Source of the DNA: Eggerthia catenaformis OT 569 = DSM 20559
Lineage (GTDB): Bacteria; Bacillota_I; Bacilli_A; Erysipelotrichales; Coprobacillaceae
Direction of reading: 5' to 3'
Assembly (NCBI RefSeq): GCF_000340375.1
Contig: NZ_KB446646.1
Span: 62,001 to 126,000 of the forward strand
Length of the DNA stretch: 64,000 nucleotides
Shown: one piece after another, positions 1,425 to 53,319 of the stretch
How the letters are laid out: the number at the start of each line of letters is the position of its first letter
Position numbering within the stretch: position 1 is the stretch's first letter
Translations under genes and position numbers: made by a program
Notes under the pieces: generated by a model
The model's database searches: none
What the model was told of the DNA's origin: nothing
What the model saw: only the letters and a program-made list of their open reading frames with translations

Positions 1425-1528
1425 AAGATCTCCTTATAACATAGTATACAATATCATGATTTTTAATAAGTACAATACAATATTTTAAAAATTAAGAAAT
1501 AATTAATATTTATAAGTTATATGATATG

Positions 1529-16244: not shown

Positions 16245-16253
16245 TAAAAAGAA

Positions 16254-16449
16254 ATAGAGGTGCGGAAATTAAGAAGTGACTATTATATGAATACAGTCAG
16301 ATAGTCATAGAGGAATAACGCCGAAGAATTCTTAAAGCTGTATATGAAAGAATTCTGGTGAGATAGAGAATATCTATATCATTGTCACAAAATATTTGTG
16401 GAGAGCTATTGTATAAGAGAGGATGCAATAGGTTACTATTGCTTTTTTT
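16254..16449 (+). ncRNA. Lysine riboswitch (L box) with terminator
   Basis: The leader carries the L-box landmarks in order: AGAGGTGCGG, AAGTGA, AGAGGAATAACGCCGAAG, CTGGTGAGATAGAG and GGAGAGCTAT. P1 can form from ATAG (16254) and CTAT (16405). A terminator follows: GCAATAG-GTTA-CTATTGC with seven T (16425-16449). CTATTGTAT (16406-16414) can pair instead with ATGCAATAG (16423-16431), which would break both P1 and the terminator: a clear lysine-off transcription switch. The genes downstream are lysine genes. Confidence 0.92.
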
Positions 16450-16464
16450 ATAAGGAGGCAGATG

Positions 16465-20686: not shown

Positions 20687-20715
20687 TTGAATTATTAACT
20701 TTTAAATATTATAAT
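20687..20715 (+). promoter_or_regulatory. Promoter of the hydrolase-lipoprotein locus
   Basis: TTGAAT, a 17-base spacer and TATAAT. The 309-base gap between 20515 and 20823 also holds a short leader ORF and a hairpin, listed separately. Confidence 0.7.
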
Positions 20716-20729
20716 TTAGGAAAGGAGAC

Positions 20730-20762
20730 GTGATATCAATGGTTTCTTTATCTAAAGAGTGA
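20730..20762 (+). CDS. Short leader ORF ahead of the hydrolase gene
   Basis: A tiny frame with a long Shine-Dalgarno-like AGGAAAGGAG in front. Reading from GTG at 20730 gives MISMVSLSKE; reading from ATG at 20739 gives MVSLSKE. A frame of exactly the same length, coding MIPLVYLSKV, lies at the same place in the second copy of this locus (52129-52161), with different codons for the shared Leu-Ser-Lys. It may be a regulatory leader peptide. Its end overlaps the hairpin at 20755-20782. Expression is unproven. Confidence 0.4.
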   Translation: MISMVSLSKE

Positions 20763-20782
20763 AGGTCATAATATTCACTCTT
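20755..20782 (+). promoter_or_regulatory. Hairpin overlapping the leader ORF end
   Basis: A perfect nine-base inverted repeat (AAGAGTGAA / TTCACTCTT, 10-base loop) starts within the leader ORF and has no T tract, so it is more likely a regulatory RNA fold than a terminator. Confidence 0.45.
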
Positions 20783-20823
20783 GCTTATGTATAATAAATA
20801 TTTTAGAAAGGAAAGTGAATAAG

Positions 20824-21498
20824 ATGAAAAAAGGAATAGTATTTATTGTATCATTGTTGTTAGTTTTTAATTCGAGCTTAATTGGCGTACAGGCAAAAGA
20901 TGTATCTGAAATGAATGATAAGGAAAGAGAAGAATATATTAATAAGGTATTTGATCCTAAACTGGTTGACAGATTAAATAAACAGGGAGATAAAAAGCAG
21001 GTATATCAGCCTAAGTCGTTAACTGGGAGTAATCGTGGAGTCAGAGCCGCTAAAGGAAGGTATCCAAAAAGAAAAGGTGTTATACTTTATACTCCTGATA
21101 AATATAAAGGAGTCGTCCCTCTTGGACATGCAGGCATGGTTTATGATAGAGGTTGGATTATAGAATCCTTGGGAGATGGTGTTCAGTGGGGTTATAATAA
21201 TTGGGATACCCAGCATAGTAAGTGTTACGCTTTAGGAGTAAAAGGAACATCGGTTAAACAAGATGCCAAAGCCGGTGACTATTGTGTAAAGCAGATTGGA
21301 AAACCATATAATTATAACTATTATAATATGGGAACTAGAAAAAGTTTTTATTGTTCACAGCTTATATATGCAGCTTATCTAGATACATGCGGTGTTGACC
21401 TTAATACACCTAGTTTTGATATTGGACCTTTAAAAGCAATACATCCGGTAGAATTACTTGAAGGACCAAAGACAACCTTACTTTATAGGAGCAGTTAA
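20824..21498 (+). CDS. Secreted permuted NlpC/P60-like hydrolase
   Basis: 224 residues from the ATG at 20824 (AGAAAGGAAAG upstream). A signal peptide (about residues 1-25, ending VQAKD) and a charged linker precede a YiiX/YebB-like permuted papain-fold domain. The histidine comes first (LGHAGMVYD), and the cysteine late, in SFYCSQLIYAAY. This order is the mark of permuted NlpC/P60 enzymes, which act as amidases, peptidases or acyl hydrolases at the cell surface. The lipoprotein gene follows at once with its ribosome site inside this gene's end. In the second copy of the locus this gene is deleted. Confidence 0.75.
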   Translation: MKKGIVFIVSLLLVFNSSLIGVQAKDVSEMNDKEREEYINKVFDPKLVDRLNKQGDKKQVYQPKSLTGSNRGVRAAKGRYPKRKGVILYTPDKYKGVVPLGHAGMVYDRGWIIESLGDGVQWGYNNWDTQHSKCYALGVKGTSVKQDAKAGDYCVKQIGKPYNYNYYNMGTRKSFYCSQLIYAAYLDTCGVDLNTPSFDIGPLKAIHPVELLEGPKTTLLYRSS

Positions 21499-22584
21499 AT
21501 GAAAAAACTATTGTTATGTTTTTTTCTACTTTTAGCCACAGGATGTACTGTTAATGAAAAGAAGGAAAAGATAGACTGGGAACTAGGAGTTATTGAAACG
21601 TCTATCTATAAGAGAAATACAAAGATTGTTTATTTTGATGGCGATTTTAATATAAAGGGTGAGGATAGTTTAAAAGCAGCCGGTGTTTCAAAGAATTTAG
21701 GAGAATCTTCATACCAAAAAGAAAATGCTTATTTTGAAGCAAGAGGTTTAACTAGAAAGAATGATGACAAAAAAATCATAGAATTAAACAGGAATACAAG
21801 AAATATTAAATTTTATGATGTGGATAGGATAAACATTCAAGGTGTTATTGCGAATGATAAATACACATATACAATCAGTAATTTGGATAGAAAAGTTTAT
21901 ATAACTCAAACAGATTATAATAATAAGAAAGTAAAAGAAATTACTTTTAATGATATTATAACTTTAAATCTTTTCTTAGCCGGAGACAAGATAGTAGTTC
22001 CTTACAATCTTCTTGAAGATTCAAGGAAAGAATTTATTAATATTTATGATAAGCAATTAAACTTAATTAAGAAGATAGACTTATCTCAATATGGGCGTAG
22101 CATAACAGAAGCAGTCGTTATTAATGATAAAATCTATCTGCCTGTTTCTAGTAAAACTAATGAGGATGGAAGTGAAGAGATAAGTAATAATCTGATTGTT
22201 GAGTTGGATGTGAAGAGCTTAGATTTTAAGATTATTAAAATTAAAACAAAGGAGCTAGGCCATGTTAATAAATATGGCGATTGGCTTATTATTATGAATT
22301 CAGAGTCACCTACATATGAAGGTAGAAAGATGACTTTCTATCATACAAAAACAGGAGAAGAAAAGATATTTAATCTTAAGCATCCATTAAGGGATGTTGA
22401 GGTTTATGGTGACTTTATCTATAGTGCAAATTATTATAAAGAAAATAATGAAAGGGGGTATATATTAGTAAAATATTCAATTAAAGATAACATGAAAGAA
22501 GTGAGATATAAAAAAGTTAATTTATTGAATAAGTATAAAGAATATCATTATTATTCTGATATCTTTGTAAATTATAACAATTAG
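21499..22584 (+). CDS. Lipoprotein of unknown function, copy 1
   Basis: 361 residues. The signal peptide ends in a lipobox (LLLATGC, Cys about 16). The rest is soluble, with repeated short beta-rich segments suggesting a propeller-like fold; I see no catalytic motif. It is clearly paralogous to the lipoprotein at 52252-53319: both share ELGVIET near the N-terminus, ITQTDY-x-NKKVKE in the middle and SIKDNMKE near the end. It starts directly at the hydrolase stop codon, so the two are probably co-translated and may work together at the outer face of the membrane. Confidence 0.75.
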   Translation: MKKLLLCFFLLLATGCTVNEKKEKIDWELGVIETSIYKRNTKIVYFDGDFNIKGEDSLKAAGVSKNLGESSYQKENAYFEARGLTRKNDDKKIIELNRNTRNIKFYDVDRINIQGVIANDKYTYTISNLDRKVYITQTDYNNKKVKEITFNDIITLNLFLAGDKIVVPYNLLEDSRKEFINIYDKQLNLIKKIDLSQYGRSITEAVVINDKIYLPVSSKTNEDGSEEISNNLIVELDVKSLDFKIIKIKTKELGHVNKYGDWLIIMNSESPTYEGRKMTFYHTKTGEEKIFNLKHPLRDVEVYGDFIYSANYYKENNERGYILVKYSIKDNMKEVRYKKVNLLNKYKEYHYYSDIFVNYNN

Positions 22585-25697: not shown

Positions 25698-25769
25698 ATG
25701 GAAAATCAATTTATTCTCTTTCTAGGGGTGATTCTCTGCTTTTCCTTAGTCATGCCTATATCCTTTTAG
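25698..25769 (+). CDS. Tiny hydrophobic peptide, toxin-like
   Basis: A 23-residue frame, MENQFILFLGVILCFSLVMP and three more residues, behind GGGAGG with seven-base spacing. It is almost wholly hydrophobic. Its 3' end lies in the left arm of a long hairpin (25751-25807). The layout of strong ribosome site, hydrophobic peptide and 3' hairpin resembles type I toxin genes of Bacillota, but no antisense promoter could be assigned. The overlapping longer frame at 25583-25780 looks spurious by comparison. Low certainty. Confidence 0.35.
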   Translation: MENQFILFLGVILCFSLVMPISF

Positions 25770-25845: not shown

Positions 25846-26607
25846 ATGAAGAAATTAAGAAAATATACACTCATTATCTTATCCGCTTTTCTGTTTTTAC
25901 TTACTTCTAATATGCATGATGCTTTTGCATATAATGGAGAAAAAGTCGTATATAAGGACAAGGATGCCATTGTCAAAGTTAATGATAGAGGCAATCAAAG
26001 AATTGTAGAAGTCATCAGTTATAAGAATCATAAAAGATTTCTATATACAATTAATAAGTCCGACATTCAGTTGAAGACTTTTGATGCCAAAGGCAGACCG
26101 ATTGAGTCCGGGATACTGGCTTCCAAAAAGGATGATAGAATTAATCCGATATTATCATCAGATAAGATGCTAAAGGCAAGAAAGCCAATTTCATGGGGAA
26201 AGATTGTTGAAACAACAACGATTTTTGCTCAGAGATTATGGTATCAGATGGGGTATAGAAATAAGACAACTTATATGAGAATAGGCTGCAAGGCTAGATA
26301 TACCATCAACTATAATGGTTTAAGCAGCTGGCAAATAAGAAGATGTGAGTGGTATTCTAAATCTATTAGATTATATAACGGTTATACGGATCAATTATCT
26401 CTTTGTTTTGCAGGTTTTACTATTATTGTGTCAATGCTTCGTTTTGCTTTTCCTTTGATTACAGGTGGGCTAGGAATACCGGCAGCAGCGGCGGCAGTTG
26501 GAGCAGCATTTGGAGTTCTTTATAAATTTGCTGATTTAGTAGCTAAAGCTGCAAACGAATATGCAGATGCTGATTACTTCTATGATATTATTAAGGTCTG
26601 GGCATAA
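25846..26607 (+). CDS. Secreted protein with Gly/Ala-rich hydrophobic end
   Basis: 253 residues. The signal peptide (1-28) ends DAFA before YNGEK. The middle is basic and strand-rich. Near residues 185-240 there are hydrophobic segments with GGLGIPAAAAAVGAAFG, a glycine-zipper-like element often seen in membrane-active bacteriocins and toxins. No catalytic motif is visible. AGGAGG precedes the ATG. A small two-span membrane protein follows 15 bases later, the usual arrangement of a bacteriocin and its immunity protein. This role is inferred from layout alone; a surface or envelope-stress protein is also possible. Confidence 0.55.
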   Translation: MKKLRKYTLIILSAFLFLLTSNMHDAFAYNGEKVVYKDKDAIVKVNDRGNQRIVEVISYKNHKRFLYTINKSDIQLKTFDAKGRPIESGILASKKDDRINPILSSDKMLKARKPISWGKIVETTTIFAQRLWYQMGYRNKTTYMRIGCKARYTINYNGLSSWQIRRCEWYSKSIRLYNGYTDQLSLCFAGFTIIVSMLRFAFPLITGGLGIPAAAAAVGAAFGVLYKFADLVAKAANEYADADYFYDIIKVWA

Positions 26608-52093: not shown

Positions 52094-52128
52094 TTAATTA
52101 GAAATACAAAATATATTAGAAAGGAGTT

Positions 52129-52161
52129 GTGATTCCCTTGGTGTATTTAAGCAAGGTATAA
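52129..52161 (+). CDS. Short leader ORF, second copy
   Basis: It codes for MIPLVYLSKV from GTG at 52129 (or MVYLSKV from TTG at 52138), behind AGAAAGGAG. Same length and place as the leader at 20730-20762 and similar in five to six of ten residues, with Leu-Ser-Lys kept through different codons. Possible regulatory peptide; expression unproven. Confidence 0.4.
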   Translation: MIPLVYLSKV

Positions 52162-52207: not shown

Positions 52208-52255
52208 ATGAAAAAAATCGACAATTCAGATTACTTTATAGGAGTTTTTAAATGA
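52208..52255 (+). pseudogene. Remnant of the permuted NlpC/P60-like hydrolase gene
   Basis: Only 15 codons remain (MKKIDNSDYFIGVFK). The start ATGAAAAAA resembles the start of the hydrolase gene at 20824, and the end TTACTTTATAGGAG matches its 3' end exactly, but in another frame. The middle of the gene appears deleted, leaving the ribosome site that serves the lipoprotein gene, whose ATG overlaps the remnant's stop. Confidence 0.6.
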
Positions 52256-53319
52256 GTAAGCTATTATTATGTATACTTTTAGTACTGGCTTCAGGCTGTT
52301 CATTTTCTAAGAAAGAAGCTATTGATTATGAATTAGGTGTTATTGAAACGACTACTCTGGATCGTAAAACAAGATTTCTTTATCTTGATAAGAATTTGAA
52401 TATTGTCAGAAAAGACCATTATAAAGCAAGTACAACTTCTTCCAGTGCTGAAAATCCTTCTTATCAAGGCAGAAAAGTTTATTTTGTTCCTAATGGATTA
52501 ACTGATGAAGGAATTGAAAAGAAGATATTAGAAGTTGATAGGGATACTCATCAAATTAAATCTTATGATGTAAATAGGGTAAATCTTCAAGGTATTGCTG
52601 TCAATGAGAAATATACTTATACGATAAGTAATGATAATACAATTACTTATATCACACAAACAGACTATCATAATAAAAAAGTAAAAGAATTAACTTTTCA
52701 TGATATTATTACTCTTACTGTTTTAAAAGCTAATGATAAGATTATTGTTCCTTATGGGCTTATAAAAAAGACAGAAAAACAATTAATAAATATTTATGAT
52801 ACAGAATTAAATTTAATTAAGAAACTGGATTTATCAAAATATGGTCATGGTATTACAAGATTAATAGTTATAGGAAATAAAGCTTATATGCCTATTTCAT
52901 CAAAGTTTAATTATAATACTTATGATAATGATAATAATAATTTGATTGCAGAGTTAGATTTAAAGACATTGAATTATAATATTATTAAGCTTAAGGCATC
53001 TGAGGTGGGAGATGTATCTTTTTATAAAGATTGGCTGGTAGTGGTTAATTCTGATGCACCTCGTTATGAGGGAAATAAAATAACATTCTATCATACCAAG
53101 ACTAAAGAAGAGAAAGTTTATGAATTAAAGGATCATCTTGCCAGAATAGAAAGGACAGGAGATTATTTTTATGGATTGTCATATATAAAGGATGGTTATA
53201 AGATTACCAGATATTCAATTAAGGATAATATGAAGGAGCTGAACAGTAAGAAATTTTATCCGTCTAAAGGGTATAGTGTACATTATTATTGTTCAAATAT
53301 TTTTGTAAAGAATAATTAA
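52252..53319 (+). CDS. Lipoprotein of unknown function, copy 2
   Basis: 355 residues with a lipobox (VLASGC, Cys about 16) and the same beta-rich layout as the lipoprotein at 21499-22584. Shared stretches include ELGVIET, ITQTDY-x-NKKVKEL and FYHTKTKEEK. The divergence is spread over the whole length, so the duplication is not recent. It has lost its hydrolase partner but kept promoter, leader ORF and ribosome site, so it is probably still expressed. Function unknown. Confidence 0.75.
   Translation: MSKLLLCILLVLASGCSFSKKEAIDYELGVIETTTLDRKTRFLYLDKNLNIVRKDHYKASTTSSSAENPSYQGRKVYFVPNGLTDEGIEKKILEVDRDTHQIKSYDVNRVNLQGIAVNEKYTYTISNDNTITYITQTDYHNKKVKELTFHDIITLTVLKANDKIIVPYGLIKKTEKQLINIYDTELNLIKKLDLSKYGHGITRLIVIGNKAYMPISSKFNYNTYDNDNNNLIAELDLKTLNYNIIKLKASEVGDVSFYKDWLVVVNSDAPRYEGNKITFYHTKTKEEKVYELKDHLARIERTGDYFYGLSYIKDGYKITRYSIKDNMKELNSKKFYPSKGYSVHYYCSNIFVKNN

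Follow-up and report, generated by a model that had tools for sequence, protein, structure and literature searches.

A bulged, over-long Shine-Dalgarno sequence and a short reading frame ahead of two copies of an amidase-lipoprotein operon in Eggerthia catenaformis: a possible ribosome dock

Introduction

Two sites in the genome of Eggerthia catenaformis, separated by 31,399 bases, raise the question of why a very strong Shine-Dalgarno (SD) sequence should stand before a reading frame of only a few codons, with the genes further downstream. Both lie in the window analysed here, a stretch of 64,000 nucleotides (contig NZ_KB446646.1, positions 62,001 to 126,000) with 31% GC in a genome of 1.94 Mb. 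A first-pass annotation of the window had described the two frames and their SD sequences, and both were found exactly where it placed them; the pattern common to the two leaders matches these two sites and no other in the window, and had no match in 100 shuffles. The best explanation, to which a probability of about 45% is given, is a ribosome dock in the 5' leader that is common to two copies of one operon. A control element of this sort is uncommon, but not unprecedented. In Bacilli, whole mRNAs are stabilised by a strong SD close to their 5' end, even without a start codon (PMC3997798), and the STAB-SD of cry3A, which does not direct initiation, stabilises its mRNA by blocking RNase J1 (PMC4113751). 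The features of the two loci are collected in Table 1. Elsewhere in the window, at 16247-16416, an ordinary lysine riboswitch aptamer (Rfam RF00168) lies 5' of a gene starting at 16462.

Table 1. Features of the two leaders and of the genes that follow them (positions in the window)
Feature	Coordinates	Strand	Remarks
Predicted promoter, TTGAAT-17-TATAAT	20687..20715	+	10/12 matches; weak, 4 sites versus 3.6 by chance
Super-Shine-Dalgarno 1, GGAAAGGAG-AC-GTGATATC	20719..20737	+	2-nt bulge against the 16S tail; -17.6 kcal/mol
Putative mini-ORF 1, MVSLSKE, from inner ATG	20739..20762	+	10-codon version starts at GTG 20730
Perfect 9-bp hairpin	20755..20782	+	arms 20755-20763 / 20774-20782; holds the mini-ORF 1 stop codon
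Competing helix	20766..20827	+	20766-20779 / 20814-20827, 12/14 pairs; covers the amidase start codon
YiiX/YaeF-type permuted papain-like amidase gene (Peptidase_C92)	20824..21498	+	N-terminal signal-like stretch
Lipoprotein gene 1	21499..22584	+	start adjoins the amidase stop codon
Super-Shine-Dalgarno 2, AGAAAGGAG-TT-GTGATTCC	52118..52136	+	two-base bulge; -20.4 kcal/mol
Putative mini-ORF 2, MVYLSKV, from inner TTG	52138..52161	+	
15-codon frame, MKKIDNSDYFIGVFK	52208..52255	+	3' part left over from the deleted amidase gene, together with the SD of lipoprotein gene 2
Lipoprotein gene 2	52252..53319	+	paralog of lipoprotein gene 1

Two leaders of one duplicated operon

The leaders had been described as standing ahead of two lipoprotein loci 31 kb apart, which is accurate for locus 2; at locus 1 the first gene is the amidase and the lipoprotein gene comes second. 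The two lipoproteins share 51% identity over 348 residues, and at locus 2 the amidase gene is gone, save for a 42-bp match (21478-21519 versus 52231-52272) that includes the SD of the lipoprotein gene. By sequence comparison, locus 2 derives from a duplicate of the locus-1 operon that lost the intervening YiiX-type amidase gene. Since the lipoprotein genes are paralogous, the leaders are duplicates and do not count as two separate cases, and the match to the amidase 3' end likewise indicates that the 15-codon frame at locus 2 is partly a residue of the deletion.

The amidase-lipoprotein pair is also found in G020, G034, G259 and a Lachnospiraceae MAG, and its recurrence in several genomes points to an old operon. 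The lipoproteins had no match in NCBIfam or the PDB, and a search of plasmids returned only distant YiiX matches, on two Bacillaceae plasmids, with none in the phage search. In G034 (L025 2129-3304, minus strand) a permease-like gene lies immediately 5' of the pair, and in G020 (L067 12428-15253, minus strand) an ABC transporter ATPase and a large permease-like protein are encoded a few kb 5' of it; a functional link between such transporter or permease genes and the pair is possible. A lipoprotein homolog in G025 (L015/L012) has in-frame stop codons, no amidase gene being seen directly 5' of it, and is apparently a pseudogene.

Shine-Dalgarno strength and the position of the start codon

The 3' end of the 16S rRNA of this genome is GGATCACCTCCTTTCT, the complement of which is AGAAAGGAGGTGATCC, and both leaders (AAAGGAG-NN-GTGAT) nearly match this full complement, save for the two-base bulge. 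Predicted pairing strength was compared with a background drawn from the window and 400 kb of stretches of this genome, in which the median for sampled gene starts is -10.2 kcal/mol and just one start in 292 is as strong as the leaders. When 162 5' regions are ranked by SD strength, leader 2 comes first and leader 1 fourth, the other two of the top four being a normal gene start and a site ahead of a 23-codon frame. The ribosome-binding sites of the leaders are, in short, among the strongest in the sampled genome. Across the whole genome, AAAGGAG-N(0-3)-GTGAT has 13 matches, seven of them antisense to 16S ends; the remaining six are the two leaders, three sites that precede long genes and one that precedes an 11-codon frame.

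Several other sites came to light in these searches. A near-match of the leader pattern elsewhere in the genome (L005) proved to be an ordinary gene start and was set aside. At L079 (G000:C4 near 214582, minus strand; ~1512..1460 in the locus) a super-SD, AAAGGAGGTGAT, precedes an 11-codon frame, MIASKSLYQCI, that is followed by a terminator-like hairpin, ACACGAGAGTGTCTTTTTT; this is possibly a second leader of the same general type, ahead of a small gene. Within the window, an SD-led 23-codon frame at 25698-25769, MENQFILFLGVILCFSLVMPISF, lies about 150 bases 5' of a gene at 25846, and a small membrane protein is a possible product.

The two frames had been read as 10-codon leader ORFs, GTG ATA TCA ATG GTT TCT TTA TCT AAA GAG TGA at 20730-20762 and GTG ATT CCC TTG GTG TAT TTA AGC AAG GTA TAA at 52129-52161. 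The frames are present as described, but the GTG start is probably wrong. In both, the GTG begins two nucleotides after AAAGGAG, inside the stretch that is complementary to the anti-SD, and it more probably belongs to an extended SD than serves as a start codon. The inner ATG (20739) or TTG (52138) lies four bases after GTGAT, at normal start-codon spacing from the SD. Given this spacing and the involvement of the GTG in SD pairing, the usable start is likely the inner ATG or TTG, and the ORF one of seven codons, not ten.

Conservation between the copies and among relatives

When the two copies are compared in ungapped register, the SD core is identical at 8 of 9 positions and the inner frame at 14 of 24, with flanks (12/30 and 11/30) near background. 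The first-pass annotation had taken the residues shared between the copies as a hint of selection on the peptide. In a neutral simulation with 10 differences, a same-length frame with at least four of six residues identical was retained with P = 0.00013 for random positions and P = 0.0018 with the differing positions fixed as observed. Selection on the frame gains modest support, frame and peptide appearing better kept than neutral drift predicts, a suggestive result from a single post hoc comparison.

A search for the same short frame gave no further copy in 98 relatives, among which the leader pattern produced only background-level matches with 2 mismatches, and no leader was seen ahead of distant YiiX homologs in Lachnospiraceae and Bacilli. 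In G020, a member of the same family but another genus, an orphan super-SD, AAAAAGGAGAGTGAT (-15.7 kcal/mol), lies ~78 nt ahead of the amidase gene, and no start codon follows it at a workable distance; it is the third strongest in 19 kb, behind the two gene SDs of the operon itself, and is a single case with a ~2% chance per 5' region judged from the G000 background. G034 has no leader, because another gene directly precedes its amidase gene. Two further candidates were not counted: a 16-codon SD-led frame 5' of the operon in G259, with a weaker SD, another position and no sequence match, and an SD-like stretch at the lipoprotein gene of G213, which is part of a terminator-like hairpin. From these sequences, the SD appears to be the most widely kept part of the leader, and the frame is known from this genome alone. 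Conservation of the SD only had been named in advance as grounds for abandoning the leader frame, and that outcome is found in part, G020 keeping the super-SD without the frame and the two copies here keeping the frame.

Alternative explanations

Mini-ORF 1 overlaps the perfect nine-base hairpin that had been reported for it, which is real, and the 3' arm of this hairpin has an alternative partner in the amidase start region, through a competing helix with a core of 8 perfect pairs (20772-20779 / 20814-20821). The two helices are mutually exclusive, and could serve translational attenuation in which the leader ORF is translated. A ribosome arrested at the start of the leader would keep the hairpin folded and the amidase start codon accessible; one that has moved on to the leader stop codon would open the hairpin, so that its 3' arm pairs over the amidase start and lowers expression. 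Perfect stems of 9 and 8 bp so arranged were found in 0 of 2000 shuffles, and stems of 7 and 7 bp in 1 of 2000, in a test devised after the helices had been seen. Predicted pairing of the amidase start region rises from 0.22, with a ribosome at the leader start, to 0.82 when the RNA is masked to 20760, but is only 0.42 with a ribosome at the stop codon, and the locus-1 fold as a whole is ordinary in comparison with shuffles (z -1.0). Retention of frame and peptide between the copies fits attenuation; locus 2, however, has no equivalent competing structure and no stem of at least 7 bp in the tested stretch. An Rfam scan found no RNA family at either leader. As in ermC/ermA and other ribosome-mediated attenuation leaders of Firmicutes, a short SD-led frame lies 5' of a gene at both loci and, at locus 1 only, alternative hairpins reach the gene start codon; unlike them, the genes downstream are an amidase and a lipoprotein and not resistance genes, no known stall motif is recognised, and locus 2 has not kept the structure. 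The earlier proposal that translation of the short frame controls the downstream genes is therefore plausible at locus 1, with its competing helices, and lacks the structure at locus 2, and attenuation as the general explanation is possible though somewhat improbable. A further mechanism from the literature, Rae1-type cleavage of short ORFs, was considered as well.

The leader might instead be an evolutionary residue, a functionless extra copy of a gene start that was carried along when the operon was duplicated. The SDs of the locus-1 leader and of the amidase gene have a 13-nt repeat in common (ATTTAGGAAAGGA / ATTTTAGAAAGGA), the element is missing from most homologs, and SD-led mini-ORFs in general occur at the rate expected by chance (7 of 162 5' regions versus 6.0 in shuffles). 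Divergence of the flanks as against the SD core and frame speaks against a relic, of which exceptional SD strength in both copies would also be unexpected, and this origin is judged unlikely. Far less probable still is the idea, raised in the first-pass annotation, that the short peptide is itself the product, as a signal or regulatory peptide. The frame is retained and its codon changes preserve Ser and Lys, but the peptide has only seven residues and lacks an export signal, neither a receptor nor a transporter dedicated to it is seen beside the leader, and the 98 relatives hold no further copy; with no supporting gene or copy found, this reading was rejected.

A ribosome dock at the 5' end

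The ribosome dock supposes that the 5' end of the RNA lies near the SD, and the predicted promoter at locus 1 would place the mRNA start only a few bases from the super-SD, although promoter matches occur at chance density, which counts against the dock. Near such an end the over-long SD would capture 30S subunits very tightly, and on a seven-codon mini-ORF, which is probably translated, ribosomes would initiate and terminate at once. Ribosomes parked at the start of the message would most likely protect or tune the mRNA, their occupancy of the 5' end most likely shielding it from 5'-3' decay by RNase J, and this shielding would set the lifetime of the amidase and lipoprotein mRNA. Two genes of the RNase J family in the genome score above the curated cut-off. 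Also counting against the dock, an element that only stabilises could do without a reading frame, whereas here the frame and four of six residues are kept; G034 and the more distant homologs lack the element, and G020 is a lone case.

Like the STAB-SD of cry3A in Bacillus thuringiensis, each leader carries a very strong SD that is complementary to the 16S tail and is located in the 5' UTR, some 80-130 nt ahead of the gene, and the genome likewise has RNase J genes. Unlike the STAB-SD, both leaders have a start codon at a workable distance and keep a seven-codon frame; the G020 element is without a usable start. Both leaders thus have the strong, 16S-complementary 5'-UTR SD that marks a STAB-SD, but they are not assigned to the class as such, since a STAB-SD does not direct initiation whereas a usable start follows here. 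A fuller version of the dock would have the bulged, over-long SD and seven-codon frame govern the YiiX amidase and lipoprotein envelope operon, the stop codon of the frame lying in a hairpin in competition with the amidase start codon. That would make it a leader switch in a class of genes in which such switches are not known; this combination is doubtful.

Absent confirmation of the dock or of control by the mini-ORF, the result is a modest annotation matter, an example of an extended Shine-Dalgarno sequence that mimics a GTG start codon in the annotation of short ORFs. If the dock is true, control by a 5' ribosome dock or mini-ORF would reach beyond the mRNAs of Bacillus toxins and antibiotic resistance, from which it is mainly known, to an envelope operon that is uncharacterised and belongs to another Firmicute lineage.
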